Source: Natronococcus sp. A-GB1 (GTDB lineage Archaea; Halobacteriota; Halobacteria; Halobacteriales; Natrialbaceae). From it: a DNA stretch of 64,000 nt. The notes under the pieces are model-generated. The model saw only the letters and a list, made by a program, of their open reading frames with translations, did no database searches and was not told where the DNA came from. Of this stretch, positions 2,943-63,870 are shown in pieces. The translations under genes were made by a program, and so were the position numbers. Location of the stretch: assembly GCF_029688845.1 (NCBI RefSeq), contig NZ_JARUKW010000010.1, positions 1 to 64,000 of the forward strand, in the 5' to 3' direction. How positions within the stretch are numbered: position 1 is the stretch's first letter; every line of letters starts with the position of its first letter.

Positions 2943-3334
2943 GGAATCACCTTTTTCATCTCGGAAAACAGTAGTATAGGGGCCTTCTCGAGGCGGACGA
3001 TTTCGACTTGTCGCGGTGAATACGCTCGCTACCCGTCTCGTCTTGGACTGTTAAGCGAACAATAAGCTTTTATAATGATACTCGTACCGCTTCGACGGAA
3101 AAATGAGGGACTCAAAACAGGTTCATTCTATACCGTTTCGTTCACCACTTGTTCGCTGAGTGAATAGTATGGATGAGACGGATCCCGGACCGATCGACCG
3201 GTCAACTAACGAGTACAGATACTTATTCGAGGTCGCTTCGAACGACCGTACATCGCTACCTCGAACTGAACCGAACGGGTAGCTCCGTTTACACGAACAC
3301 CCGGTGGCTATTTGCTCAAACGCGAGGTACGGGA
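2943..3334. other. intergenic stretch without a gene
   Basis: About 390 bases with no convincing coding sequence. It holds an AT-rich block near 3060-3080 (CTTTTATAATG) that could be a TATA box. Just before the decayed usp gene is a segment, GAACACCCGGTGGCTATTTG at about 3294-3313, that resembles the DNA in front of the intact paralogue near 60750-60770. The two upstream regions are therefore probably copies. Confidence 0.4.
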
Positions 3335-3809
3335 GACATAACGCGGACCGTCCTCGTTCCGACGGAAGGATCACCGCTCTCGATGAAGGCACTCGAGACG
3401 GCGCTGACCGACTACCCGGACGCCGACGTCGTCGTCTGTCACGTCCATGGACCCGATCGGCTCGGGTTTCGGTCTCATCGACGTCATGCGGCCGACGTTC
3501 GACGACGGCTCCCCTCCGGGATCAGTTCCGCCGGAGTACTGGCGCGAGTGGCACGAGAAAGCGGAATCGAAGGCTCAGGCGACATTCGACGACGCGCTCG
3601 AAACCGCCGACGCGCACAACCGGAGCGTCGAGACCGTTCTCGAGTTTGGCGAACCCGACGTCCTGGTTCTCGGCGTACTCGAGAACCAGGACGTCGACCG
3701 GATCGTAATGGGCAGTCACTGTCGAACCGGCGCGGAGCGGTTCCTGTTGGGGAGCGTCGCGGAGACTGTCGTCAAACGGGCACCGGTTCCAGTGATGGTC
3801 ATCCGGTGA
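3335..3809 (+). pseudogene. universal stress protein pseudogene (lost start, frameshift, microinversion)
   Basis: A close relative of the intact usp at 60792-61262. The start codon position reads ATA instead of ATG (GACATAACGCGGACC against CGTATGACTCGGACC). The N-terminal piece TRTVLVPTEGSPLSMKALET runs to CHV, where one extra C (CACGTCCATGG against CACGTCATGG, near 3449) shifts the frame. The rest continues as MDPIGSGFGLIDVM through MGSHCRTGAERFLLGS to the end. Inside the second part the residues GVL replace the expected EYA, because a short segment between inverted repeats is flipped. Otherwise it is well conserved, so decay is recent. Confidence 0.88.
3656..3696. repeat. 17-bp perfect inverted repeat with flipped 7-bp loop
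   Basis: Two perfect 17-base arms (3656-3672 and 3680-3696) flank a 7-base centre, GCGTACT. On the plus strand the decayed usp reads VLVLGVLENQD here. If the centre is inverted it reads VLVLEYAENQD, which matches VILEYAEGHD of the intact paralogue. The sequence therefore appears to have undergone a palindrome-mediated microinversion. Confidence 0.8.
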
Positions 3810-3829
3810 CACGACGGTTCAGTATCGCC

Positions 3830-4216
3830 GTCGCGGCTTCTCTTTCACGTCGAACTCGAGGACCTGTTCGTGGATCGACGGTCTATCTTCGTCGCCGGGG
3901 TGCCAAGCTGGTTCCCTCGCGGTCGAGGAATCGTTCTGGCGTTTACGTCCAACAACAGGGCCTACGACTACCTCGGATCGAAAGCCCCGAAGTAGCCTCA
4001 GAGCCACGGCACGTACGTCATCTTCTGGATCGTGGCCGTCCATGGCTACGACCGGGCGTACCTCCGTCCGTACGAGAAGATAGGGTTCCCCTCGGACGAT
4101 CCGTACCACCTGCTCTATCTCCGATGATCGTCGTGGTGGTCCTTCTCCACGTGGTCGCGTTCACCACAGTCGTCTCCGAGTATCGGAAAACCGGCGAGTA
4201 TCCGCCCGGGCTTTGA
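3830..4216 (+). pseudogene. decayed ferric-reductase-like membrane protein gene
   Basis: The tail of a multi-pass membrane protein homologous to the gene at 63221-63870. From about 3930 the pieces LAFTSNNRAYDYL, SHGTYVIFWIVAVHGYDRA and LHVVAFTTVVSEYRKTGEYP line up one after another, but in different frames. The first half of the family is missing or unrecognisable. Both copies have lesions in the shared segment near FPSDDP, at different places. It sits directly after the decayed usp, as in the other copy of this pair, and convergent with the P-type ATPase. Confidence 0.75.
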
Positions 4217-4304
4217 TCCCCTTCCACGGATTTCGTGCTCGAAGTGAGCGGCACGTCGCTCGAAAAAGGCGTTCGAGAAGCGACCGACCGGCAAAGACCA
4301 GCGG

Positions 4305-7037
4305 TCAGTACCGGTCGAAGTGCCGATCCTGAAGCGCGACGAAGCCGGCCATCAGGATCGAGAAGACCGCGACGACGAGGCCGATCTGGAGCCAGTGGCC
4401 AAGCGCCAGCGGCGTGACGCCGAAGAGGATACTCAGCGGCGTATAGAGCACGAGCAACTGGAGCGTCAAGGTTATCGCGATCGCGAGCACCAGCCACCGG
4501 TTGTTCGAGAACAACCCAAGGCCGTATCGTGTCCTGATCGCCCCGATACGGGCGATCGCCATGAACACGAAGGCGGTGAACACCATCGTCTGGGCCAACA
4601 CCAGATCGCCAACGACCTGGTTATAATAGTAAAACAGCGGCAGTAACGTGGCCGTGATCAGGATAGCGATCCCACCGATCGATGACATGATCCGTTCGGT
4701 GATAACGCCCTCACCTGGGGGCCGCGGCGGCCGCTCCATGACGTCGTCGGCTTCGGGATCGACGCCCAGCGTCAACGCGGGGATACCGTCCGTGACCACG
4801 TTGATCCACAGGAACATGATCGGCGTCATCACCAGCCCCGCACCGGACATGATCCCGGAGAACAACAGCAGGACGTGTGCGCCGTTGGCCGAGAGGAAGT
4901 AGTTGACGAACTTGCGGACGTTGTCGAAGATCCGCCGTCCTTGGCGAACGGCGTCACGGATCGTCGCGAAATTATCGTCGAGCAGGACGATGTCCGAGGC
5001 CTGCTCGGTGACGTCTGTCCCGCGAATTCCCATTGCGACGCCCACGTCGGCGTTCTTGATCGCCGGTGCGTCGTTGACACCGTCGCCGGTCATCGCTACT
5101 GTGTGGCCCTTCTCCTGGAGCATCTTGAGGATCCGTGTCTTGTGTTCCGGCGACGTTCGTGCGAAGACGTCGACCTCCTCGACGACGTCGGCGAGTTCCT
5201 CGTCGCTCATCTCCTCGAGCTCGAGGCCGGTCACCACCCGGGCCGACTCGAGGCCGATCTCGCGGCCGACCGCTCGTGCGGTGGTCGCGTTGTCACCCGT
5301 AATCATGACCACGTCGATTCCCGCGTTCAGACAGCCCTTGAGCGCGCCCGCCACCTCAGGCCGGGGTGGATCGAGCATCCCCTGGAGACCGAGAAAGACC
5401 AGACCCTGTTCGTCGTCTTCGCTCACCGTCTCGGGTGCGTCTGGCCGGAACGCAAAGCCCATCACGCGCAGGGCGTCCTCGGCGAACGACTCGTTGCGAC
5501 GCTCGAGTTCCGCCCGTCGCTCCTCGGTGAGTTCGACGAACTCGCCGTCGACGTACTCGCGGGTGCACCGCTCGAGGACGACCTCGGGCGCGCCTTTCGT
5601 GTAGGCGACGTGGTCGCCGTCGGGCGTCTCGTGGAGGGTGGTCATTCGCTTGCGATCCGAGGTGAACTCAACCTCGCCGACGCGGGGGTAGCGCTCGCGG
5701 ATCTCTTCGTGGTCGAAGCCAGCCTTCCGGGCGGCGACGAACAGTGAGATCTCGGTTGGATCACCGAGATACGCCAGTTCGCCGTCTCCGGACGCCGACT
5801 CGTCGTCGCGGTCTTCACGCCGGCCGAGTTCGACGTTGTTACACAGCATGCCACAGCGAAGCAGTTCGCCGACGCGCTCGGCGTCGACTGGTTCATCGTC
5901 GTGGCGAATCTCCCCGTCGGTGTCGTAGCCGGTGCCGGTGACCTCGTAGATCTCGCGGTTCGCTGCCAGTCGAGTAACCGTCATCTCCTCTTCGGTCAGC
6001 GTCCCAGTCTTGTCGGTACAGATGACGTCGACGGAACCGAGCGCCTCGACGATCGGGAGCCGACGGACGAGCGCGTTCTGGTCGGCCATCCGTCGGGCGC
6101 CGAGGGCGAGCGAGAGGGTGACGACGGCCGGAAGTCCTTCGGGAACGGCGGAGACGGCGACGGCGACCGCGGTCATGAACACCTGGACCGGCTCGGTGTC
6201 GCCGATCACCAGTTCCGTGATGCCGATCACCGTCACGATGCCGATGACGGCTGCGGCGATGATCTTGCCGAGTCGGTCGAGTTCGGCCTGAAACGGCGTA
6301 TCGCGTTCTTCGGCCTCTTCGATTGCGGTCGCGATCTGGCCGATCTCCGTCTCTGAGCCGGTTTCGACGACGACGGCGATTCCCGAGCCACGCTCGACGA
6401 CGGTGTCCTTGTGGAGGACGTTCTCGCGCTCGGCGATCGTGACGTCTTCGGAGATCGTCTCCGGCGTCTTTGCGACACTGACGCTCTCGCCCGTGAGCGC
6501 CGACTCGTCGACCCGGAGGTTCGACGACTCGATCACCCGTGCGTCGGCGGGGACGACATCGCCGGATTCGACGAAAACGATATCGCCCGGAACGACGCGA
6601 GTGGCGTCGATCTCGGTCTTTTCGCCGTCGCGTCTGGCCATCGCGTACGTCGTCGACATCTCCTCGAGCGCCTGAATGCTCTGTTCGGCGCGGTAGTCCT
6701 GGACGAACCCGAACAGGGTGATCAACACCACGATGCCGGCGATGACGCCCGCGTCGATCAGCTCGCCGATCCCCGCCATCACGGCCGCGGCGACGATCAA
6801 CACCCAGATCAATACCGAGGTATACTGCTCGAGGAAGATCCGAAGCGCCGATGCACCGGCTTCGGTTTCGACCTCGTTCGGGCCGTATCGGTCGAGACGG
6901 TCGGCAGCCTCTTCAGAATCGAGGCCCGCTTCGGAGGTCTCGAGTTCCTCGTAGGTCTCCTCGAGCGAATGCGCGTGCCACTCGACCGCGGGTTCGATCT
7001 CCGGGTGTGCGCGTTCGCTGTATTGGGTCTCTGCCAC
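4305..7037 (-). CDS. P-type cation-transporting ATPase (PacL-like, type II)
   Basis: This 910-residue membrane pump couples ATP hydrolysis to cation movement across the cytoplasmic membrane. The P2 layout is complete: N-terminal cation-ATPase domain (about 15-70), first membrane pairs, actuator motif TGES at 182-185, membrane motif PEGLP at 299-303, phosphorylation site DKTGTLT with Asp342, nucleotide-binding domain, hinge [12 protein letters not shown], and a C-terminal block of about six helices. The overall type (Ca2+/Na+-like rather than heavy-metal) is supported by the PEGL motif and the lack of CPC. The ion cannot be fixed from sequence alone. It is convergent with the decayed membrane gene and about 180 bases from the next gene, with no obvious partner. 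Confidence 0.95.
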
Positions 7038-7218
7038 GAATGGGGTGTCGTCGGCGTCGTAAATAATATTCAGTTTAGCGGCTCATTTGACGACCGGGTA
7101 CGTCGGTGCCCGCTCGTCGATCCGGCCTCGTCGAGAGTCGTCGATCCGACCACCGGTTTCCGACCGGCCGCCACCACAGTCGAATGGCTGTCACCGGTCA
7201 GTGCGGTCGCCCGATCGT

Positions 7219-7596
7219 TCAGGTTGACGGGGTGAACGTGACGAGCCAGTGACCGTCACCGTCGGATTCGGCATCAAGGAGTACGTCGTCGCCGCGTTCG
7301 ACCTCGTCGGCGCCGCGGAGCTGCCCCGTGAGTCGGACGCCCTCCTCGAACGTCGCGACGACGATCGTGTACGGCGTCTCGTCGGCGTACCGCGGTGTCG
7401 AACTGTAGATCGTCGTCGCCGCGGTTACGGTCGCCGTCTCCGAGAGGGAACGTTCCTCGAGTGCCCGACTCGAGCACTCCGGACAGACCGTCCGCGGCGG
7501 TAGAGCGGCCTGCCCACACTCCTCACAGGCGAGGTAGATCGGGTCGCCGTCGTCGATGCGCTCGGCGAAGTCGATGAACCACCGCTGCATACTCAC
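7219..7596 (-). CDS. DUF35-type zinc ribbon/OB-fold acyl-CoA-associated protein
   Basis: A 125-residue protein with a rubredoxin-like zinc ribbon, CEEC at 24-27 and CPEC at 38-41, followed by an OB-fold. This is the layout of DUF35 proteins (ChsH2-like), which pair with thiolases or hydratases and may channel acyl-CoA. It overlaps the upstream thiolase: the GTG start shares bases with the thiolase stop codon (GTGA), which suggests translational coupling. An in-frame ATG two codons later (7590) is an alternative start. The thiolase plus DUF35 arrangement is common in haloarchaea and supports a complex of the two. Confidence 0.9.
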   Translation of the reverse strand: MSMQRWFIDFAERIDDGDPIYLACEECGQAALPPRTVCPECSSRALEERSLSETATVTAATTIYSSTPRYADETPYTIVVATFEEGVRLTGQLRGADEVERGDDVLLDAESDGDGHWLVTFTPST

Positions 7597-8756
7597 TCAC
7601 CCCCCGCCCGCAGGACGTTGACGACACAACTCGCCCCGCTACCGCCGACCGTGTGCGTGAGTCCGATCGTCGAGTCGTCGACCTGGTTTGGGTGGCGCCC
7701 CTCGAGCTGTTTCGTGATCTCGACGAGCTGGGCGACGCCGGTCGCGCCAACCGGGTGGCCCTTCGCCAACAGTCCGCCGGAGGTGTTAACCGGAATCCGG
7801 CCGTTGACGGCCGTTTCACCCTCGACCGCGCCGCGGACACCCTCGCCGCGCTCGAAGAAGCCGAGCGACTCGACTGCGAGGACCTCCGCGATCGTGAAGC
7901 AGTCGTGGAGTTCGACGACGTCGACATCCTCGGGCGCGATCCCGGCGCTGTCGTAGGCCTGGTCGGCTGCTCGCTCAGCGGCCCGGGTCCGCGCGAGATC
8001 GGGACGGTCCTGGAGCGCCAGCGAGTCGGTCGACTGGCCGCTGCCTTCGAACGACACCTCGGTCTCGATGCCGTGTTCCTCGGTGAAGGAGTTGCTGACA
8101 AGGACGGCCGCGCTCGCGCCGTCAGTGATCGGACAGCAGTCGCCCAAGTTCAGCGGGGTCGCGACCGGCGGCGAGTCGAGCACGCGCTCGACGGAGGTTT
8201 CCTCCTGGCGCTGAGCCAAGGGGTTCGTGACGCCGTTCTCGTAGTTCTTGACCGCGACTTCCGCGAGATCCTCCTGGCTGACGTCGAATTCGTCCAGATA
8301 GACCTGAGCCATCAGCGCGTAGATGCCGGGGAACGTGAGGCCGGCCTTGTTCTCGTACTCGTTGTCCGCGGCGTTTGCCAATGCGTCCGTAACCTCCTGG
8401 ATACCGGCCGCGTACATCCTCTCGACGCCGCCGACGAGCGCGACGTCGGCGTCGCCGGCCATGATTGCCTGCGCGCCCGACCTGGCGGCCGAACTCGCGG
8501 AAGCACAGGCGCTCTCGGTCCGCATGGAGGCCGCCTGGCGCGCTCCGAGGTAGTCAGCTGCCATCGCCCCGACGTGGGCCTGGTCGTCGATGAGGTCGCC
8601 GATGAAGTTGCCGGCGTACAGTTCATCGACGTCGCCTGGCGTCAGCGAGGCGTCAGCGAGCGCCTCGAGCGCGGCGTCGGTGAACAGTTCACGGGTCGAC
8701 GAGTCGGGATGCTCGCCGAACTCGGTGCTGGCCACGCCAGCGATCTGGACAGTCAT
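7593..8756 (-). CDS. thiolase-family acetyl-CoA acyltransferase (SCP-x type)
   Basis: A 387-residue thiolase that would cleave or form beta-ketoacyl-CoA using CoA. The nucleophile is Cys84 in ESACASASSA. The later motifs are VELHDCFTIAE, GGLLAKGHPVGATG with the catalytic His, and GGSGASCVV. The HDCF form is typical of SCP2/SCP-x type thiolases that work with a DUF35 partner, which lies directly downstream here. A TATA-like box sits about 25-34 bases before the ATG. The substrate is unknown. A short copy of its N-terminus survives about 1.6 kb away at 10366-10449. Confidence 0.93.
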   Translation of the reverse strand: MTVQIAGVASTEFGEHPDSSTRELFTDAALEALADASLTPGDVDELYAGNFIGDLIDDQAHVGAMAADYLGARQAASMRTESACASASSAARSGAQAIMAGDADVALVGGVERMYAAGIQEVTDALANAADNEYENKAGLTFPGIYALMAQVYLDEFDVSQEDLAEVAVKNYENGVTNPLAQRQEETSVERVLDSPPVATPLNLGDCCPITDGASAAVLVSNSFTEEHGIETEVSFEGSGQSTDSLALQDRPDLARTRAAERAADQAYDSAGIAPEDVDVVELHDCFTIAEVLAVESLGFFERGEGVRGAVEGETAVNGRIPVNTSGGLLAKGHPVGATGVAQLVEITKQLEGRHPNQVDDSTIGLTHTVGGSGASCVVNVLRAGGE

Positions 8757-8780
8757 GCGCCGGCCGCTACCACGATCCGA

Positions 8781-8836
8781 CTCTTAATACCCCCAGAAAC
8801 CAGTTACCCGTCCGACAGACACGAACCCATTTATCC
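8781..8836. promoter_or_regulatory. divergent promoters between thiolase and SDR genes
   Basis: On the minus strand GTATTAAGAG (8790-8781) lies 25-34 bases before the thiolase ATG. On the plus strand CCATTTATCC (8827-8836) lies about 24-33 bases before the SDR ATG. Both positions fit archaeal TATA boxes for leaderless or short-leader transcripts. Confidence 0.55.
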
Positions 8837-8859
8837 GGCGTCGGTGTAGGGAGTGGGCG

Positions 8860-9588
8860 ATGCTCGACAATCAGATCGCGATCGTGACCGGCGGCGCCGT
8901 CGGTATCGGGAAAGCTATCGCCGCCCGATTCGTCGACGAGGGAGCGACCGTCGTTATCGCCGACGTCGACGAGGACAACGGCGAGTCGGCCGCCGAAGAG
9001 ATCGGTTGCCAGTTCAATCACTGCGACGTCACCGACTACGACCAGGTCGAGTCGCTGGTCGAGGAGACGGTCGAGGCCCACGGCGGCCTCGACGTCATGG
9101 TGAACAACGCCGGGGTCGCGAGCGTGACCTCCGTCGAGGAGATGGACCTCGAGGAGTGGAAGACTGTGGTTGAGACGAACCTCGACGGCGTGGTGCACGG
9201 CACGAAGGCCGCGCTGCCCCACCTCAAGGAGTCCGATGGCTGCATCATCAACCTCGGCTCGATCTACGGCTTGGTGGGTGGGAAAGGCGCAGCTTCCTAC
9301 TCGGCCGCGAAGGGGGGCGTCGTCAACTTCACCCAGCAGGTGGCGATCGACTACGCCAATCAGGGCGTCCGGGTCAACAGTATCTGTCCGGGCTTCGTCG
9401 AGACGCCGATGACCGAGGACTTGCTCGAGGACGAGCGCTTCTACAACTTTCTCGAACAGAAGACGCCGATGGACCGTCACGGCCAGCCCGAGGAGATCGC
9501 CCCGATGGCCGCGTTCCTGGCCTCCGATGAGGCATCCTACATCACGGGAGCCAACATCCCAGTCGACGGCGGGTGGACGGCTTTCTGA
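8860..9588 (+). CDS. short-chain dehydrogenase/reductase
   Basis: A 242-residue classical SDR, an NAD(P)-dependent oxidoreductase of alcohols or ketones. Visible features are the cofactor loop TGGAVGIG (10-17), an acidic residue after the second strand (ADVDEDN, suggesting NAD preference), NNAG (82-85), the catalytic triad Ser134, Tyr147 and Lys151 (YSAAK), and the PG turn in NSICPGFVETPM. It is divergent from the thiolase/DUF35 pair with adjoining promoters, so a shared role in acyl or hydroxyacyl metabolism (for example 3-hydroxyacyl-CoA oxidation) is plausible but not shown. Confidence 0.93.
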   Translation: MLDNQIAIVTGGAVGIGKAIAARFVDEGATVVIADVDEDNGESAAEEIGCQFNHCDVTDYDQVESLVEETVEAHGGLDVMVNNAGVASVTSVEEMDLEEWKTVVETNLDGVVHGTKAALPHLKESDGCIINLGSIYGLVGGKGAASYSAAKGGVVNFTQQVAIDYANQGVRVNSICPGFVETPMTEDLLEDERFYNFLEQKTPMDRHGQPEEIAPMAAFLASDEASYITGANIPVDGGWTAF

Positions 9589-11016: not shown

Positions 11017-11259
11017 GTGCACCGCTACGACTGGATCCTGCTGGCCATCGCCATCGCTCTCGTCGGTGGAGGGCTCATCGGCGCGCTGACGCCGGTCCCA
11101 ATGGAGTACGGGCTAGCCGCCGCGTTTGTGCTCGCCACGCCGTTCGTCTACGACGCGATGTTTCGGAACCCGCCACTTCCGGCAAGCGACTTCCAGCGAG
11201 CCGCCGCCGCGATCATTTGGCACGCGCTTCTGGTTTGGGCGGTCCTAGCCGCGATCTGA
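11017..11259 (+). CDS. small two-helix membrane protein
   Basis: This 80-residue protein begins at a GTG. It has a hydrophobic helix at about 6-25, a second at about 30-48, and a third weaker segment at the C-terminus (AAAAIIWHALLVWAVLAAI). The family is unnamed to me, but a relative, truncated at its N-terminus, is at 60527-60754 with the same core (FVYxAMFRNPxLP and RAAAAIxWHA). That conservation supports it as a real gene. Its 3' end overlaps the end of the convergent nosD-like gene by 15 bases. Confidence 0.65.
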   Translation: MHRYDWILLAIAIALVGGGLIGALTPVPMEYGLAAAFVLATPFVYDAMFRNPPLPASDFQRAAAAIIWHALLVWAVLAAI

Positions 11260-13173
11260 TAGCGATGGTTCGCACAAATCATACTTCGAGGAATTTTGCT
11301 CGATCTGAGCGAGCAGTTCTGGATTCGTAGGTTCACAGCGTGGTGCCGTATCAACGATGCTTTCCGCACGCATACCGGAAACAGCCCCCTCAAACGTGGT
11401 AAGTGTGTCAAGGGCAGGCGACCGTGTGAGTGTCGGCGTCCCATCGACGCGATGAAGTCGCTCGTCGACGGGGTGGGTCGGCGAGTATGACCGCTCGAGA
11501 CTCGACCCATCGCTCGAGCCAACTGCTCCCTCCCAGTAGTTACCCTGTCCGTCGGCTGTCCAAACACGAAGTACTCCGAGTCGTGCAGTTGCATGCCGAT
11601 AGTTGCCGATGAAGTCGTTGTTGGTCACCTGATTGGTTGGCAGCAACTGGTTCGCCTGAACGCCCTCTACGTTCCCCGAGATGACGTTTCGTTCATATAT
11701 CGAGTTCCCTGCTGCAGTTGTCATGCCGACCTCTGTATCAGTGATGACGTTCTGGGCGATGTACGACTGCGATCCTCCCATCAAGAGTCCCTGCGACGTA
11801 TCCCGTATCTCGTTCCCGACGACGGCATTATGCTCTGGATCTGTCATCACATCGATTCCGGTCGATTCTGCACTCAAGATCTGGTTGTCGGCGATCAATG
11901 CATCCGAGGTATACATCAAATGGACACCGATTCGGTTCCCCTCTAATGTATTGTTCCGATAGATCAGTTCGTGCGATCGATGGGTGTAGATCCCGTCACG
12001 ACCGTCGCGAAAGTGCGAGTCTTCGATCACACCGCCTGGAGATCGCATTGTCATAACTCCCATGTAGCCGTCGTCCCAGTGATCGCTGCCGTCAACAGTA
12101 ACGTTCCGAACGACGGCTTCCGGACTATCCCGAAGCAGGACTCCGTTCGCTGGCGTTTCGATCGAGACATTTTCGACGACGGTTCTTTCAGAGCCGTTGA
12201 CCTCGATACCTGCATCTCCCTGGCCGTAGGCCATCTCGAGGACGTCTTCGCTATCATCCAGATTCCTGTCTTCAGTGTCAGCCTCCGCTACATCACCGAC
12301 ACCGGAAATTTGGAGATCCGTTACCGCAGCTCGATCGTCTTCGATTCGGATGACGGTTCCGTTGCCGTCCCCCTGAACCGTCGTCCCCTCTTCTCCAGCG
12401 ACAGTGACCGGCCGGTCGACGTCGATAGCGTCGGAGACGTTGTAGGTTCCAGATGGGACGAACACTGTCGCTCCCCTGGATGCGGTATCGATACCCTCCT
12501 GGATGGTTGCTACATCCTGACCAACGACGACTTCTGTTGGTCTATCGCGGGCTTGTGTTGCATCCGAAACCAGCTCGTCACCACGTGCGTGACGTTCGTC
12601 GACTCGATCCCGGACGACATCAGCGTCATCGATCTCGAACGAGTGATCGAGAAGCCGTTCCCAGCTCACTACGGTGCCACCGTGTTCGGTCGTAAACGCC
12701 TCTGCGTCTTCCTGTCTCGAGAAGGGCACGACGGTTTCCCCAGCTGGTGTTCTCGCCTCACTTCCGACAACGAACCACGCAGACTCCGCATCGGTCCAGC
12801 TCTCCGTTCCGTTCGCGGCTAGGTGGCCGTCGGTCGTGAGTTCGAACGCTTTCCCGCTATAGTCAGTCACATAGACTCCAGTCGGATAGCCAAAGCGGTC
12901 TTCATGCCCCATTTGCTGGCTAGCGTCGACAAATCGCTCGATCCCCTGATAGCCGACGACGTACTCGTACTGAGAATAGAACACCTGCGCTTTCGGAACG
13001 TCGATTCGGTCCTCATCAGGTTCGTTCTCGAGGATGACACCCGTAGCAACGGTGTCCTCGAACGGTACCGGATCAGGCGATGTCGATCCGATATCTGCTA
13101 TGAAAATCCCAGCGACCCCGAGAAGACAGATACCAGCGAGGACCGAGATCAAAAGTTTGTGGGAGAGAGCCAT
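11245..13173 (-). CDS. nosD: NosL-NosD fusion, copper-insertion-type beta-helix protein
   Basis: A 642-residue exported protein. An N-terminal membrane anchor or signal (about 8-27) precedes a NosL-like domain (about 60-190) with VPKAQVFYSQYEYVVGY, YVTDYSGKAFEL and the VSWERL end. A right-handed parallel beta-helix of NosD/CASH repeats follows (about 220-560), with typical turns such as NTLEGNRIGVHLMYTSDALI. NosD proteins act outside the membrane with NosF and NosY in maturing the CuZ centre of nitrous oxide reductase. A paralogue with the same fusion is at 18253-20187. It is divergent from a NosL lipoprotein gene (122-base gap). No intact NosZ is visible in the window. Confidence 0.9.
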   Translation of the reverse strand: MALSHKLLISVLAGICLLGVAGIFIADIGSTSPDPVPFEDTVATGVILENEPDEDRIDVPKAQVFYSQYEYVVGYQGIERFVDASQQMGHEDRFGYPTGVYVTDYSGKAFELTTDGHLAANGTESWTDAESAWFVVGSEARTPAGETVVPFSRQEDAEAFTTEHGGTVVSWERLLDHSFEIDDADVVRDRVDERHARGDELVSDATQARDRPTEVVVGQDVATIQEGIDTASRGATVFVPSGTYNVSDAIDVDRPVTVAGEEGTTVQGDGNGTVIRIEDDRAAVTDLQISGVGDVAEADTEDRNLDDSEDVLEMAYGQGDAGIEVNGSERTVVENVSIETPANGVLLRDSPEAVVRNVTVDGSDHWDDGYMGVMTMRSPGGVIEDSHFRDGRDGIYTHRSHELIYRNNTLEGNRIGVHLMYTSDALIADNQILSAESTGIDVMTDPEHNAVVGNEIRDTSQGLLMGGSQSYIAQNVITDTEVGMTTAAGNSIYERNVISGNVEGVQANQLLPTNQVTNNDFIGNYRHATARLGVLRVWTADGQGNYWEGAVGSSDGSSLERSYSPTHPVDERLHRVDGTPTLTRSPALDTLTTFEGAVSGMRAESIVDTAPRCEPTNPELLAQIEQNSSKYDLCEPSLSDRG

Positions 13174-18252: not shown

Positions 18253-20187
18253 TTAGGCTGCGCTGTCGCAGGGCCACGCTCGGTCTTGCCACGCGGTTCG
18301 CTCGAGTAGCTCGGGGTTGTTCGGCTCACAGGTCGGCGCTAGATCGACGATGCTCCCGGTCCGCATTCCGGGAACAGTGCCTTCGAGGCCGGCGAGTGCC
18401 TCGAGGGCAGGTGCCTGTGCGAGTGTTGGTGTGCCGTCGACTCGGTGCAACCGCTGATCGACTGGATCGGTCGGCGAGTACGCTCGGTCGATCGTCTCGC
18501 CGTCGCCGAAACCGACTGCCCCCTGCCAGTAGTTACCGCTTCCATCGTCGGTCCAGACTCGAAGTGGACCGGAACTTGCCGTCGCGTGTCGCTCGTTCTC
18601 GACGAAATCGTTCTCGAGCACCTGGTTTGTCGGCAACAGTACCTGTACGTCGGCCCCGACCTCGTTGCCCGCAATGACGTTGCGTTCGTAGATCGAGTTC
18701 GTCGCGGAGATCTGTAACCCGACGTTATTTCCTTCGAGAACGTTTCCCGCGACGTACGAGTCGCTCCCGCCAGGTGAGAGCGCTTGCTCCGTATCCCGGA
18801 TGTCGTTGTTGACAATCGCGTTGCGTTCCGGCCCGGTCATGATGTAAACCCCCGTGTTGGATTGCTCTCTGAGCTGGTTGTTTCCGAGAAGCGCATCCGA
18901 CGTATGCATGAGATGGATCCCCAGCCGGTTCCCCTCGAGTTCGTTATCGCGAACGACGAGGCCGTGGGAGTGGTGGGAGTACACCGCGTCTCTGCCGTCA
19001 TACACTGTCGTGTGTTCGATCACGCCTGGCGTACGAAACGCGAGGATTCCCGCGTGTCCGTCCGACCAGTCCGCCGGGCTGTGAACGGTGACGTTTCGGA
19101 CGACAGACTCGCCGCTGCGGCGAAGGAGCACACCCGTCACTGACGAATCGACGGTGACGTCTTCGATCAGCGATTGGTTTGCGGTGTGAACGGCGATTCC
19201 GGCATCGCCGCTCGCGTAGTTTCGCTCGAACGTTTCGTCCCAGTCGCCGGTTTCGTTCTCGGTTCCGGGCAACTCCGCATCACCGCCTCGCTGTGCTCCT
19301 TGTGACCCCGAACCGGTAACGGCCAATCCGACGACTGCGGTCCGATCCGCAGTCGTTGTGATGACCGAGCCGGTGCCGTCACCACGGACAGTAACGTTTC
19401 CGTCACCACGAAGCGTCAGCGGTCGCTCAACCTCGAGTGTCTCTTCGTACTCGCCCTCGGGAATCACGATCGTGGTGTTTTCGGGAGCCTGCTCGATCGC
19501 TTCCTGAATCGTCTCCGTATCGTCGCCGACCACTGTCGAAACGGGCCGTTCGCGGAGTTCTGCCGCGGAGTCGACGCGCTCGTCGGCGTCCTGGTGTTGG
19601 CCCTCAACCCGATCCCGAACGACGCTCGCATCGTCTATTTCGAATCGCTCGTCGAGCAGGTCATTCCACGTGAGCACCGTTCCACCGTGGGCGTCGGCGA
19701 ACGCGGTTGCATCGTCGCGCTCCGAGAACGGGAGCGGCGTCTCTCCACTCGGCGTTCTGGCGTCGCTTCCGTGAACGAACCATGCGTCTTCCCCGTCGGT
19801 CCAGGCTGGATCACTATCGGCTGTCGGGTAGCCGTCAGTAGTCAACTCGAGGTCCACGCTCGAGTAGTCCGTAACGTAGACCGTCTGAGGATGACCGAAC
19901 CGTTGTGTGTGGCCGTCCTGTCGCTGTGTCTCGACGAACCGCTCCACGCCGTAGTAACCGACGACGTACTCGTATTGCGAGTAGAACACCTGTGCCTTCG
20001 GCAGTTCGACACCTTCCTCGAGTCCGTACTCGTCGTCCGCAGCAAGACCCATCGAAACTGTATCGTCGAAAGATGCCGGTTTGGGTGCTGCGGATTCTAC
20101 ATCGATTACGAAGACACCCACCGCAGCGAGGGCCCCCAGTCCGAGAACAACTCCCACAAACACGATTCGCCAACGAGGTCTGGGCAC
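18253..20187 (-). CDS. nosD: NosL-NosD fusion, beta-helix maturation protein
   Basis: A 644-residue paralogue of the fusion at 11245-13173 with the same plan: N-terminal anchor (about 9-29), NosL-like domain (about 60-190, with LPKAQVFYSQYEYVVGYYG and TDYSSVDLEL) and NosD beta-helix repeats (about 220-560, for example DNELEGNRLGIHLMHTSDAL). It leads the nosD-nosF-nosY operon and is the better candidate for the working NosD partner. The C-terminal region (SPTDPVDQRLHRVDGTPTL) is shared with the paralogue. Confidence 0.92.
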   Translation of the reverse strand: MPRPRWRIVFVGVVLGLGALAAVGVFVIDVESAAPKPASFDDTVSMGLAADDEYGLEEGVELPKAQVFYSQYEYVVGYYGVERFVETQRQDGHTQRFGHPQTVYVTDYSSVDLELTTDGYPTADSDPAWTDGEDAWFVHGSDARTPSGETPLPFSERDDATAFADAHGGTVLTWNDLLDERFEIDDASVVRDRVEGQHQDADERVDSAAELRERPVSTVVGDDTETIQEAIEQAPENTTIVIPEGEYEETLEVERPLTLRGDGNVTVRGDGTGSVITTTADRTAVVGLAVTGSGSQGAQRGGDAELPGTENETGDWDETFERNYASGDAGIAVHTANQSLIEDVTVDSSVTGVLLRRSGESVVRNVTVHSPADWSDGHAGILAFRTPGVIEHTTVYDGRDAVYSHHSHGLVVRDNELEGNRLGIHLMHTSDALLGNNQLREQSNTGVYIMTGPERNAIVNNDIRDTEQALSPGGSDSYVAGNVLEGNNVGLQISATNSIYERNVIAGNEVGADVQVLLPTNQVLENDFVENERHATASSGPLRVWTDDGSGNYWQGAVGFGDGETIDRAYSPTDPVDQRLHRVDGTPTLAQAPALEALAGLEGTVPGMRTGSIVDLAPTCEPNNPELLERTAWQDRAWPCDSAA

Positions 20188-59580: not shown

Positions 59581-59985
59581 ATGTACGAGACAGTTCTCGT
59601 CGCGACCGACGGCAGCGACCCGGCGAACCGTGCAGTCGACGCAGCGGTCGATATCGCGTCGACGTTCGACGCCGCGCTGTATGCCGTTTCGGTCGTCGAC
59701 ACCAGCCGATACGGCGACTCGATGTTGTCCGGAACGGAACGCCTTGTCGATGACCTGCGAGAGCGGGCCGACGACGTCCTCGAGGACGTCACGACGCGGG
59801 CCGGCGTCGACGTGACGACCGAACTCCGGCAGGGCCGTCCGCACGAGGAGATCGGTGCGTACGCCGACTCCATCGACGCGGATCTGGTCGTGTTCGGTAA
59901 CCGCGGCCGCGGTGCCAGTGACGAAATCGGCAGCACTGCGGAACGCGTCGTCAGGTACGTCGACCGACCGACGCTCACGGTCTGA
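59581..59985 (+). CDS. universal stress protein
   Basis: A 134-residue single Usp domain, starting METVLVATDGS-like (MYETVLVATDGSDPANRAVD). The ATP motif is GNRGRGASDEIGSTAERVV, which matches G-x2-G but has fewer residues before the last G-S, so ATP binding is uncertain. TTATTT about 30 bases upstream is a possible TATA box. First of a run of four usp-type genes in one orientation. Its nearest relative is the next gene. Confidence 0.9.
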   Translation: MYETVLVATDGSDPANRAVDAAVDIASTFDAALYAVSVVDTSRYGDSMLSGTERLVDDLRERADDVLEDVTTRAGVDVTTELRQGRPHEEIGAYADSIDADLVVFGNRGRGASDEIGSTAERVVRYVDRPTLTV

Positions 59986-60058: not shown

Positions 60059-60478
60059 ATGTACGATACGATCCTCGTTCCGACCGACGGAAGCGATCCG
60101 GCGAACAGAGCGGTCGAACACGCACTGATCCTTGCGGACAGATACGGCGCCGATCTGCACGCGATGTACTGCGTCGAGACGCACCGGTATGGCGAACCCG
60201 CACTGAGCAGCACGGAACTCATCGTCGACAACCTCGAGGACCAGGGCGCCGCCATGCTCGAGGAGATCAGCGACCGAGCTGACAGCTCCGGAATCGACTG
60301 TCGCTGGAACGTCTGTCACGGCCGTCCGTGGGAAGAGGTTCGCAAGAAGGGGGCGAAGATCGACGCCGACCTGATCGTGATCGGTTACCAGGGACAGAGC
60401 CACACGCGAACGGATCGGATCGGCAGCGTCGCCGAGCGGATCGTTCGAACCGCGGATCGTCCGGTGTTGACCGCCTGA
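60059..60478 (+). CDS. universal stress protein
   Basis: A 139-residue single Usp domain, MYDTILVPTDGSDPANRAVE, ending with GYQGQSHTRTDRIGSVAERI. The ATP loop again lacks the standard spacing, like its neighbour. The two are clearly paralogues (SDPANRAV in both). It contains several Cys residues (MYCVETHRY, DCRWNVCHGRP), rare for this family. TAGCTATTTGG about 40 bases upstream may be its promoter. It is 73 bases behind the first usp. Confidence 0.9.
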   Translation: MYDTILVPTDGSDPANRAVEHALILADRYGADLHAMYCVETHRYGEPALSSTELIVDNLEDQGAAMLEEISDRADSSGIDCRWNVCHGRPWEEVRKKGAKIDADLIVIGYQGQSHTRTDRIGSVAERIVRTADRPVLTA

Positions 60479-60526: not shown

Positions 60527-60754
60527 TTACCCGAAGGAACCCGTCAGCGCAAGTACGAACAGGAACGCGTGCCAGACGATCGCCGCTGCCGCCCGCTTTG
60601 GCTGCGCAGTCGGCAGGGACGGATTCCGAAACATTGCGTTGTAGACGAATACGGTCGCGACGAGCGCGCCGTAAAACACCCCGACAGATGAAGAGCCCTC
60701 GGCCGTTCTGGGAACCGAGAACGCAACCGACGGGTCTCCCACTCGTCCGAACAC
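60527..60754 (-). pseudogene. truncated small membrane protein gene
   Basis: The minus strand encodes FYGALVATVFVYNAMFRNPS and RAAAAIVWHAFLFVLALTGS, a clear relative of the intact 80-residue protein at 11017-11259. Here the first helix is missing and replaced by an unrelated start (MFGRVGDPSVAFSVPRT), so it is probably truncated. It lies between two usp genes on the opposite strand. A working shorter version cannot be excluded. Confidence 0.6.
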
Positions 60755-60791
60755 CCAGTGGCTACTTGTTCGAACGCGGGGTATGGGACGT

Positions 60792-61262
60792 ATGACTCGG
60801 ACCGTCCTCGTCCCGACGGAAGGGTCGCCGCTCTCGATGAAAGCCCTCGAGACGGCGTTGACCGACTATCCGGACGCCGATATCGTTGTCTGCCACGTCA
60901 TGGACCCGATCGGATCGGGTCTCAGCCTCCTTGACGTGATGCGGCCGACGTTCGACGACGGCTCTCCGCCAGGATCGGTGTCGCCGGAGTACTGGCGCGA
61001 GTGGCACAAGAGAGCGGAATCGAAGGCCCAGGCGGTCTTCGACGACGCGCGAGAGATCGCGGCCGAACACGACCGAAGCGTCGAGACCGTCCTCGAGTTC
61101 GGCGAACCCGACGATGTCATCCTCGAGTACGCCGAGGGTCACGATATCGACCGGATCGTCATGGGGAGTCACTGTCGAACCGGCGCGGAACGGTTCCTGT
61201 TAGGTAGCGTCGCGGAGACCGTCGTCAAACGAGCACCGGTCCCTGTCCTGATCGTCCGGTGA
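60792..61262 (+). CDS. universal stress protein
   Basis: A 156-residue Usp domain with an insertion after the second strand (PIGSGLSLLDVMRPTFDDGS). The ATP motif is GSHCRTGAERFLLGS, matching G-x2-x with Cys in place of the second Gly. The start was placed at the ATG giving MTRTVLVPTEGS because that aligns with other family starts; an ATG nine bases upstream is also in frame. It is the intact counterpart of the pseudogene at 3335-3809, and its 5' flank is also similar. The pair with the membrane gene at 63221 repeats at the other end of the window. Confidence 0.92.
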   Translation: MTRTVLVPTEGSPLSMKALETALTDYPDADIVVCHVMDPIGSGLSLLDVMRPTFDDGSPPGSVSPEYWREWHKRAESKAQAVFDDAREIAAEHDRSVETVLEFGEPDDVILEYAEGHDIDRIVMGSHCRTGAERFLLGSVAETVVKRAPVPVLIVR

Positions 61263-61295
61263 CGGCCGCGGCCGACCGAAACGAGTGGACCGCAG

Positions 61296-61502: not shown

Positions 61503-61754
61503 ACCATGACATGGGCCGTCGCGGTACTTAACCTCCTCCCACGCTCGATAGCGTACGATTCTTGGATGGGGATCGGAGGATTGCGCGTTTCTTCAGCGTT
61601 CGCGGGACGCGTTGCGTCTTGGTGTCAATCAGACTCCTCGACACGAACCTCAGCTTTGGACGCGGTGCAGGCGCTCCAGTTACACCGACACGTGGCAGTA
61701 ACCGTGGGGACACCCCTAGAGGTTCTTTGGGACGAGCATGGTAGGGGCCGTGCG

Positions 61755-62984
61755 ATGTACGACACGATTCTCGTACCGACCGACGGAAGTCCGGTGGCAG
61801 AAGACGCTGGAACGTACGCGATCCGACTCGCGGAGCGCTTCGACGCGGCGCTCCACGCCGTCTCGGTACTGGAGCGAGGACTCGTCGGCGGCGACGACGA
61901 AGACGAGGGCGAACAGGCCGTCGACCAACTGGTCGACCGAGCACAGGACCGAGGTCTCGAGGTGACACGCGAACTCCGCGAGGGGGACGGCGACGTTCAC
62001 GAAGAGATCCTCTCGTCGGCCGACGAGCGCGATGCGGACCTGATTGCGATGGGGACGACCGGTCGCGGCGGACTCGGCCGATTCCTGCTGGGCAGCGTCG
62101 CCGAGCAGACGCTTCGGGAGTCGCCCGTCCCGGTCGCGACCGTCCACGAAGAGACATCCCTCGAAGACGAGTTCGAACGCGTCCTGGTACCGACCGACGG
62201 GAGCCACAGCGCGGCGACCGCCCTCGAGCACGCCGTCGACCTCGCAGTCGAAACGGGGGCCCGACTCCACGTCGTTCACGTCAGTGACGAGGGAGACGTC
62301 GACGGAACCGAGACGATCGACCTCTCGAGCGACGACGAACTCGGCCTCGAACCGGTCGACGACGCGCTCGAGCGACTGCGCGAGTCGCCGCTGGAGACCG
62401 TCGACGTCTCGGTTCCCGACGGTCGAGTCGACCAGGAGATTCTGTCGGTCGCGGCCACGCACGACGCAGACTGCGTCGTGATGGGGACCCACGGCGAGAC
62501 CGGCTTGCGGCGATACCTCCTCGGGAGTTCGACCGAGCGGGTCGTCCGCTTTGCCGGCGTGCCGGTGATCGGAGTCAGTGCTCCTCGGACCGAGGCCGCA
62601 ACCGTCGAGTACCTCGACTATCGGGTCGTCGACGAACGAGGGTGGGCGCTCGAGGACGACAACCTCCTCGAGCGCGCTGCGGACGCCGGTCTCGACGAGA
62701 CGGCACACGGCACCTTCGAGGTGTCGCGCGACGAGTACGTCCTCGACGCGGCCGAGGTGGCCGGTCACGACTGGCCGTTTCACTGCCGGGCCGGCGGCTG
62801 CGTGAACTGTACCGCCGTGCTGCTCGAGGGGGGACTCGAGATGGACGTCCAGCGAAGTCTCTCCGAGGAAGAAGTGGAGAACCACGACATGCGACTGACC
62901 TGCGTCGCGACGCCGACGAGTGACTCGATCGCGCTCGTCTACAACGCCAAGTACCTCGACCGGCTTCAGGACCGCGTCGTCTGA
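61755..62984 (+). CDS. fusion: two Usp domains plus halophilic [2Fe-2S] ferredoxin
   Basis: One uninterrupted 409-residue reading frame. Residues 1-130 are a Usp domain (MYDTILVPTDGSPVAEDAGT) with the full ATP motif at 100-114 (GTTGRGGLGRFLLGS). Residues 140-276 are a second (ERVLVPTDGSHSAATALEHA) with another full motif at 244-258 (GTHGETGLRRYLLGS). Residues 283-409 are a plant-type ferredoxin of the halophile kind (VEYLDYRVVDERGWALEDDN) with cluster ligands Cys344, Cys349, Cys352 and Cys383 (HCRAGGCVNC and LTCVATP). The start is the usual Usp ATG; the upstream frame is unrelated. I know of Usp tandems and of free ferredoxins, but not of this combination. The next gene is a haem-membrane protein. 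Confidence 0.93.
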   Translation: MYDTILVPTDGSPVAEDAGTYAIRLAERFDAALHAVSVLERGLVGGDDEDEGEQAVDQLVDRAQDRGLEVTRELREGDGDVHEEILSSADERDADLIAMGTTGRGGLGRFLLGSVAEQTLRESPVPVATVHEETSLEDEFERVLVPTDGSHSAATALEHAVDLAVETGARLHVVHVSDEGDVDGTETIDLSSDDELGLEPVDDALERLRESPLETVDVSVPDGRVDQEILSVAATHDADCVVMGTHGETGLRRYLLGSSTERVVRFAGVPVIGVSAPRTEAATVEYLDYRVVDERGWALEDDNLLERAADAGLDETAHGTFEVSRDEYVLDAAEVAGHDWPFHCRAGGCVNCTAVLLEGGLEMDVQRSLSEEEVENHDMRLTCVATPTSDSIALVYNAKYLDRLQDRVV

Positions 62985-63220
62985 CTGACTCGGCATAACC
63001 ATACCACCGTGGATCTCACGTCGCGCTGTCACCTACTTCGGGCTGGTAGTGGGGACTGCTCCCGCGATTAACGTCGTGGGCGTCCCTCGCTGAAGGTGAG
63101 GCCCACGTCTGCCGAGAGAGGATTCGGAATGCCACTCTGCACGCGACCGTGAGGGACGGGAACAGTTTTATCTGAGTGATCGGTGTCCGTTCGGCAACGG
63201 ACACGTGATATTGAGGTGTC

Positions 63221-63870
63221 ATGACATCTGATACTAACAACGAGCTCACCCATCATCTGGGCGTAGCGATCGGCAGCATCGTCGTGGCGGTTCTGCTGTG
63301 GGGCATCGGATACCGCGGCCAGCGAGTCGTCGCTGCCGTTCCCTTTTTCATCCTGTTTGTCGTACTGGTTATCGGCCCGCTGGTCCGTATCAGGCCGTCG
63401 ATCAGGCGTCGGTTTTCCGGGAACTTCCCCGTGAACTGGCGATCGGAACTGGGGATCTGGTTTGCGATCTGGTCGGTCGTCCACGTACTGTTCGTCTTCT
63501 GGGCACGCGACTGGGACGTCATCGGCTATCTCGTCGACATGAGTCCATGGGCGTTCGGTGCCAGCGTGGCCGTCCTCATCGCGATCGTGCTGGCGTTTAC
63601 GTCCAACAACAGAGCCTACGACTACCTCGAACCGAAAGCCCCGAAGTGGCACCAGAGCCACGGCACGTACGTCATCTTCTGGCTCGTGGCCGTCCACGGC
63701 TACGATCGAGCGAACCTCCGACCGTACGAAGAGATGGGGTTCCCTCGGACGATCCGCTCCACCTGATTTACCTCGCGATGATCGTCATCGTCGTCGCCCT
63801 CCACGTGGTCGCGTTCATAGCGGTCGTCTCCGAGTACCGGAAGACCGGCGAGTATCCACCGGACCTGTAG
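63221..63870 (+). pseudogene. ferric-reductase-like (YedZ/MsrQ-type) membrane protein, one frameshift
   Basis: A membrane protein of about 216 residues with six helices. The main frame runs from MTSDTNNELTHHLGVAIGS through VVHVLFVFWARDWDVIGYLV and LAFTSNNRAYDYLEPKAPKW to HQSHGTYVIFWLVAVHGYD, with His residues that could bind haem. It stops at 63766 after GFPRTIRST. The decayed copy at 4080-4105 has CCCC where this has CCC, and with that base restored the frame continues as PLHLIYLAMIVIVVALHVVA to SEYRKTGEYPPDL at 63868. One deleted C therefore truncates it, unless this is a sequencing slip or the last helix is dispensable. A TATA-like TTTTATCT lies about 50 bases upstream. Confidence 0.75.

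Follow-up and report, generated by a model that had tools for sequence, protein, structure and literature searches.

Does a halophilic archaeon really encode two Usp domains and a [2Fe-2S] ferredoxin in one chain, and if so, what does such a protein work with? The question is raised by a gene at 61755..62984 (forward strand) of the window, by which we mean the whole 64,000-nucleotide stretch analyzed here, positions 1 to 64,000 of contig NZ_JARUKW010000010.1 of Natronococcus sp. A-GB1. An earlier note, made from the sequence alone, placed this gene after three single-domain usp genes and before a haem-type membrane protein, and offered an energy- or redox-sensing unit as a possibility. Its interpretation is, overall, partly supported.

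Is the Fusion Real?

It is. The gene is a single open frame of 409 aa, and its product consists of a first Usp domain (residues 1-131; 61755..62147), a second (residues 140-274; 62172..62576), and a complete haloarchaeal [2Fe-2S] ferredoxin domain (residues 283-409; 62601..62981), all on the forward strand. Pfam finds two Usp domains (PF00582; 202 bits, 5.8e-60 over the whole protein) and a plant-type Fer2 domain at residues 320-388 (6.3e-12). Against the NCBIfam model NF041393, “ferredoxin Fer,” for which the equivalog cut-off is 150 bits, the C-terminal 127 aa reach 192.5 bits and span model positions 2-128 of 128; 1doi and 1e0z are sequence matches of this part.

Both Usp domains carry the nucleotide motif G-2x-G-9x-G-S, as GTTGRGGLGRFLLGS at 62052-62096 (residues 100-114) and as GTHGETGLRRYLLGS at 62484-62528 (residues 244-258), and the ferredoxin domain has its cluster cysteines in the pattern CX4CX2C...C (C344, C349, C352, and C383, with codons at 62784, 62799, 62808, and 62901). 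Across an alignment of 28 fusions reaching down to ~50% identity, the glycines of both Usp motifs and all four cysteines are invariant, and S258 nearly so. These motifs predict ATP binding by both Usp domains. The ferredoxin domain probably binds a [2Fe-2S] cluster and, since the fusion has no signal peptide, would hold it on the cytosolic side.

Residues 277-283, at the join between the second Usp domain and the ferredoxin, are free of stops and frameshifts, and the frame is intact in all relatives read. In comparison with the N. occultus protein, dN/dS is ~0.28 over the whole chain (0.029/0.103), so that purifying selection covers the fusion from end to end. Structure prediction, proposed at the outset as a check, bears the domain assignment out: an AlphaFold2 model built with 20 sequences (pLDDT 84, pTM 0.76), with its neighbors ranked by Foldseek, matches the ATP-bound tandem Usp protein TTHA0350 (3ab8) and Rv2623 in its N-terminal part and the Haloarcula ferredoxin 1doi in its C-terminal part (rmsd 1.3 angstroms, TM 0.94 on the target).

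Where Is It Found, and Did It Arise Once?

The ferredoxin part was searched against 125 Natrialbaceae genomes and the whole protein against 391 genomes of the class. Full-length fusions are present in 27 of the 125 and in one genome of another family (G200), and further ones occur among named records from Salinarchaeum, Haloarculaceae, and Halobacteriales MAGs. With an alignment as the query, a contig scan of close relatives brought up 19 fusions at full length, together with one match to the ferredoxin alone, and with a single fusion protein it brought up nothing; a phylum-wide search of 393 genomes at E 1e-60 gave no full-length fusions beyond the family.

There are two subfamilies, type A (the type in the window, ~410 aa) and type B (390 aa), and the genome from which the window comes has both, with type B on contig 7 at 90350-91519. 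When set against 20 stand-alone ferredoxins, the 28 fusion ferredoxin domains form one clade (support 100/100), and a single fusion event is therefore likely. Matches to the NF041393 family occur in 124 of the 125 family genomes and are mostly ordinary stand-alone Fer; the window's genome also encodes a canonical Fer, to which the fusion ferredoxin, belonging to its separate clade, is not orthologous. This 4.5-Mb genome has 113 Usp-domain matches, many tandem Usp frames among them.

Among the named hosts, Nab. magadii is a soda-lake or alkaliphilic species (PMC3403918). Natronoglomus and Natrarchaeobius can be placed in the same group from the titles of the papers on them. The remaining named hosts that can be placed are, we presume, also soda-lake or alkaliphilic organisms.

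Which Gene Goes with the Fusion?

Downstream of the fusion in the window, at 63221..63870 on the forward strand, lies the gene for a 216-aa membrane protein with a YedZ/STEAP-type ferric-reductase domain (a putative haem b protein), which we call FRT. Of 31 loci, 26 have it next to the fusion, and the arrangement takes two forms: in type A it follows directly on the same strand, usually after ~74 bp, and in type B the two genes stand head-to-head. FRT is the sole neighbor within 3 kb that is widely common to both contexts.

The two genes also occur together across genomes. Among the 125, the fusion is present in 27, FRT of type A or B in 26, and both in 25 (p 7e-23); put differently, A/B-type FRT is found in 25 of 27 fusion genomes, leaving two without it, versus one of the 98 others, and that one genome is 66% complete. 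The association holds within the 11 genera of mixed state (21 genomes with both, 2 with the fusion only, 1 with FRT only, 33 with neither; CMH p 8e-9). Fusion and FRT are thus linked both physically and phyletically, and the link to a haem-type neighbor that the earlier note proposed extends far beyond the window, although the gene in the window itself is frameshifted. Fusion and FRT distances correlate overall (r 0.90) because of the A/B split; within type A there is no correlation (r 0.12), and we therefore make no claim of residue-level coevolution.

Other neighbors were considered as fixed parts of the unit and set aside. The three single-domain usp genes upstream of the fusion (59581..59985, 60059..60478, and 60783..61262, all on the forward strand), which the earlier note had counted in, are context only, and type B does not retain them: further Usp genes stand no more than 3 kb away in 12 of 23 type-A loci versus one of eight type-B loci. 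For a cation P-type ATPase gene, the same distance limit is satisfied in 15 type-A loci and in no type-B locus. Type-A islands hold further redox genes as well, such as those for pyridoxamine-oxidase-like proteins.

Each of the two genes seems to have a promoter-like box of its own, and the pair is for this reason not a strict operon. Just upstream of the fusion start codon, at 61736..61746 (forward strand), stands the element GCATGGTAGGG, which has no other exact match in the window; a GTGGTAGGG-like core precedes the start codon in nine other type-A loci despite differing flanks. The element is a possible promoter or operator. A TATA-like box, GTTTTATCTGAG, lies upstream of FRT at 63165..63176 (forward strand) and is conserved in type-A loci. 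The sequence GNRTGGTAGGG, considered as a motif shared by the usp genes of the window, occurs there no more often than expected by chance.

What Happened to the Locus in the Window?

The FRT gene of the window lacks one T at ~63740 (TTCCC, versus TTTCCC in N. occultus), as a result of which its frame ends at 63766 and the remainder lies in another frame. The assembly is a draft of 57 contigs, and the frameshift may mark a pseudogene or may be an error of sequencing. The same genome has an intact type-B FRT, so that a second, undamaged fusion-FRT module is present there.

The window also holds a relic of a second copy of the locus, with the fusion missing, at 3294..4203 on the forward strand. 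It consists of a degenerate usp gene (3294-3810; 84% to 60748-61263) directly followed by an FRT tail (3930-4203; 87% to 63584-63857). After it come genes for a P-type ATPase, an OB-fold protein, a thiolase, and a short-chain dehydrogenase (SDR), the whole spanning 3294-9588, and these flanking genes match, in order and orientation, those that several relatives have around an intact pair of fusion and FRT.

Elsewhere in the window, two proteins each have a NosL domain and a NosD beta-helix domain on a single chain (11245-13173 and 18253-20163, minus strand), and the second of them adjoins an ABC transporter ATPase gene.

What Kind of Membrane Protein Is FRT?

FRT has six predicted helices, and its H88, H147, and H159 align with H91, H151, and H164 of Escherichia coli MsrQ. 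The two residues of the haem pair, H88 in TM3 and H159 in TM5, are invariant in the aligned FRTs of types A, B, and C (type C is introduced below). H147, the counterpart of MsrQ H151, is kept in types A and C; most type-B proteins have Val at this position and retain the nearby H144. In place of the first canonical haem His stands an invariant Arg74, 14 residues ahead of H88, and an Arg 14 residues before the TM3 His is the signature of YedZ/STEAP proteins (PMC3591440). On this pattern of ligands, we predict that FRT binds haem b.

FRT reaches 21.2 bits against Pfam PF01794, below the gathering score of 28, and 25.9 bits against the NCBIfam MsrQ model, below the cut-off of 130; a sequence search of the PDB with an FRT profile gave no match at E up to 10. 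The structure model is weak (pLDDT 54), has six helices, and finds STEAP and NOX2 as its top PDB neighbors at a non-significant E of 0.2. We provisionally regard FRT as a YedZ/STEAP-type ferric-reductase-domain protein and not as MsrQ. A role as a true MsrQ working with MsrP was rejected, given the score below the MsrQ cut-off and the lack of an msrP neighbor; contigs 1, 54, and 56 hold the PF00174 genes, whereas the FRT genes are on contigs 2, 7, and 23.

What Replaces FRT, and What Else Does FRT Accompany?

FRT is absent from five fusion loci, and in four of them its place is taken, immediately downstream of the fusion, by a gene for a 70-aa two-helix protein (L099:9426-9635; L098:11895-12104; L074:9317-9526; L075:8766-8975), which is found there only where FRT is missing. 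The protein has one invariant His in its second helix, in the membrane region, and weak matches to DUF4079, DUF4405, and cytochrome b561. For DUF4405 proteins and for FezC, which is a homodimer, b cytochrome identity is proven (PMC11334425). The 70-aa protein is possibly a mini-cytochrome that would act as a dimer.

Conversely, there is an FRT without a fusion, type C, at ~60% identity. It lies directly downstream of a gene for a small [2Fe-2S] (Fer2) ferredoxin in four Natronococcus-type genomes, including that of the window (contig 23, 46800-47896; L137:9795-10897). This ferredoxin bears an RR...GC lipobox signal and is thus presumably secreted. It is present in 18 of the 125 genomes, of which 17 have the fusion or FRT (p 9e-11). 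In one genome (G007), four genes follow one another on a single strand and encode, in this order, the secreted ferredoxin, a tandem Usp protein, the fusion, and the 70-aa membrane protein.

What Might the Pair Do?

The fusion and its haem neighbor suggest a stress-tuned passing of ferredoxin electrons to the membrane, an arrangement that is not known to have been described. We tentatively read the fusion as a nucleotide-tuned ferredoxin that works with FRT, its electrons going to the membrane haem and then to an acceptor located either at the membrane or outside it, and we put the probability of this reading at roughly 45%. The ferredoxin domain would be reduced by 2-oxoacid:ferredoxin oxidoreductases or by ordinary Fer, and would pass single electrons to the haem of FRT. 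The nucleotide level, acting on the Usp pair, would set docking, oligomeric state, or activity, so that the electron outlet would open under energy or redox stress. In related systems, its outer end may be the secreted lipobox ferredoxin.

We infer the flow from ferredoxin to FRT, its outward direction, and its control by nucleotides; the direction is uncertain, as the fusion is cytosolic and the type-C ferredoxin secreted, which puts the two on opposite faces of the membrane. Alkaline brine holds little soluble ferric iron, and for this reason iron reduction is one candidate, with oxygen or another acceptor equally open. Because the potential of haloarchaeal ferredoxin is close to that of NAD/NADH (PMC8305020), outward flow would hinge on the acceptor. 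A broader version of the same idea is doubtful: it would make the system an electron outlet of haloalkaliphilic archaea that runs from the fusion via FRT or the 70-aa mini-cytochrome to the secreted ferredoxin and is switched by adenine nucleotides through the Usp pair.

Alternatively, the fusion may be a redox or energy sensor, in which the cluster would inform the Usp domains of the redox or oxygen state and these would act on a partner. FRT would then be the target of regulation or a sensor working in parallel, and electrons would not flow steadily through the fusion. We hold this to be unlikely, though several points speak for it: Usp proteins are mostly regulatory, Rv2623 is among the closest folds, the type-A locus lies in Usp-rich surroundings, and the retention of one ancient fusion beside ordinary Fer fits a specialized role. 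However, the ferredoxin domain, which clears the cut-off of the curated Fer model, is a complete carrier and not a degenerate sensing cluster; what constantly accompanies the fusion is a membrane protein of haem type; and one form of FRT pairs with a ferredoxin that is free of Usp. A sensing role is possible, but delivery of electrons to the membrane suits the gene context better.

The tight phyletic coupling of fusion and FRT, and the fact that FRT alone is common to types A and B while no soluble redox enzyme is a constant neighbor, also make it improbable that the fusion is a specialized ferredoxin for soluble enzymes, with the Usp domains serving stress-dependent targeting and FRT merely co-regulated. 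That reading could draw on the service of haloarchaeal Fer to 2-oxoacid oxidoreductases and nitrate assimilation (PMC8305020) and on the other redox genes of the type-A islands.

More improbable still is a Usp pair that acts as a dimerization or solubility scaffold placing the ferredoxin, its nucleotide sites being structural. Tandem Usp proteins do make stable assemblies, and the 3ab8 crystal has bound ATP, but the retention of both full motifs in 28 proteins down to ~50% identity goes beyond what a scaffold needs. Chance joining or an assembly artefact, conceivable for a 57-contig draft with a frameshift next door, can be dismissed as next to impossible, being refuted by the relatives, which show the same architecture in ~30 genomes that include complete replicons, and by purifying selection.

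How Does This Compare with Known Systems?

Each half of the fusion has close counterparts. The tandem ATP-binding Usp proteins TTHA0350, Rv2623 of Mycobacterium tuberculosis, and 3loq of A. fulgidus likewise have two Usp domains per chain with nucleotide motifs and are the best folds for the N-terminal two thirds, but they carry no iron-sulfur domain. With haloarchaeal Fer/Fdx (1doi, 1e0z, NF041393, HVO_2995), the fusion shares the whole 127-aa module, cluster loop included, whereas canonical Fer stands alone at ~129 aa.

FRT shares with YedZ/MsrQ and STEAP the single membrane domain of six predicted helices, the His pair, and the Arg signature; unlike theirs, its constant partners are ferredoxins, in place of a molybdoenzyme or a flavin reductase. 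Bacterial proteins in which a ferric-reductase domain is fused to Fer2 (model M8 of PMC3591440) also link a ferredoxin to the haem domain, but have both in one chain; here, the ferredoxin shares its chain with Usp, and FRT has a gene of its own. Haloarchaeal Usp fusions are known with an amino-acid permease and an Na+/H+ antiporter (PMC3102087, PMC12159084, PMC5992828). As here, Usp is attached to a functional module that it is thought to regulate, although those modules are transporters.

The architecture was put forward earlier as novel, and this stands in part. The main texts of the three papers just cited mention no ferredoxin-Usp fusion, nor do the surveys of Usp domain structure and of haloarchaeal fusion genes that were consulted, which list fusions to permeases and antiporters, and literature searches covering main texts found none; for Nab. 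magadii, the genome paper gives a count of 47 genes with Usp domains and leaves ferredoxin unmentioned (PMC3403918). On the other hand, the proteins are found in ~30 genomes and are already in the databases. RefSeq lists the fusions of N. occultus (NC_019976.1 105367-106596) and Nab. magadii (NC_013923.1 200071-201318) as “ferredoxin Fer,” and a 409-aa Usp fusion under so simple a name has its Usp domains hidden. The new result is the conserved haem partner.

What Would It Mean for Haloarchaea?

Haloarchaeal ferredoxin is reduced by pyruvate and 2-oxoglutarate oxidoreductases, and the way in which it is reoxidized has been listed as unresolved; the bc1 complex is absent from about a third of haloarchaea, especially Natrialbales (PMC8305020). 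The gene pair described here unites this matter with that of the molecular role of Usp domains, and supplies a named membrane partner. If the broader version of our reading is true, this would be, to our knowledge, the first demonstration that a Usp gates the flow of electrons, and a nucleotide-switched outlet would be one answer to how haloarchaea reoxidize their ferredoxin.
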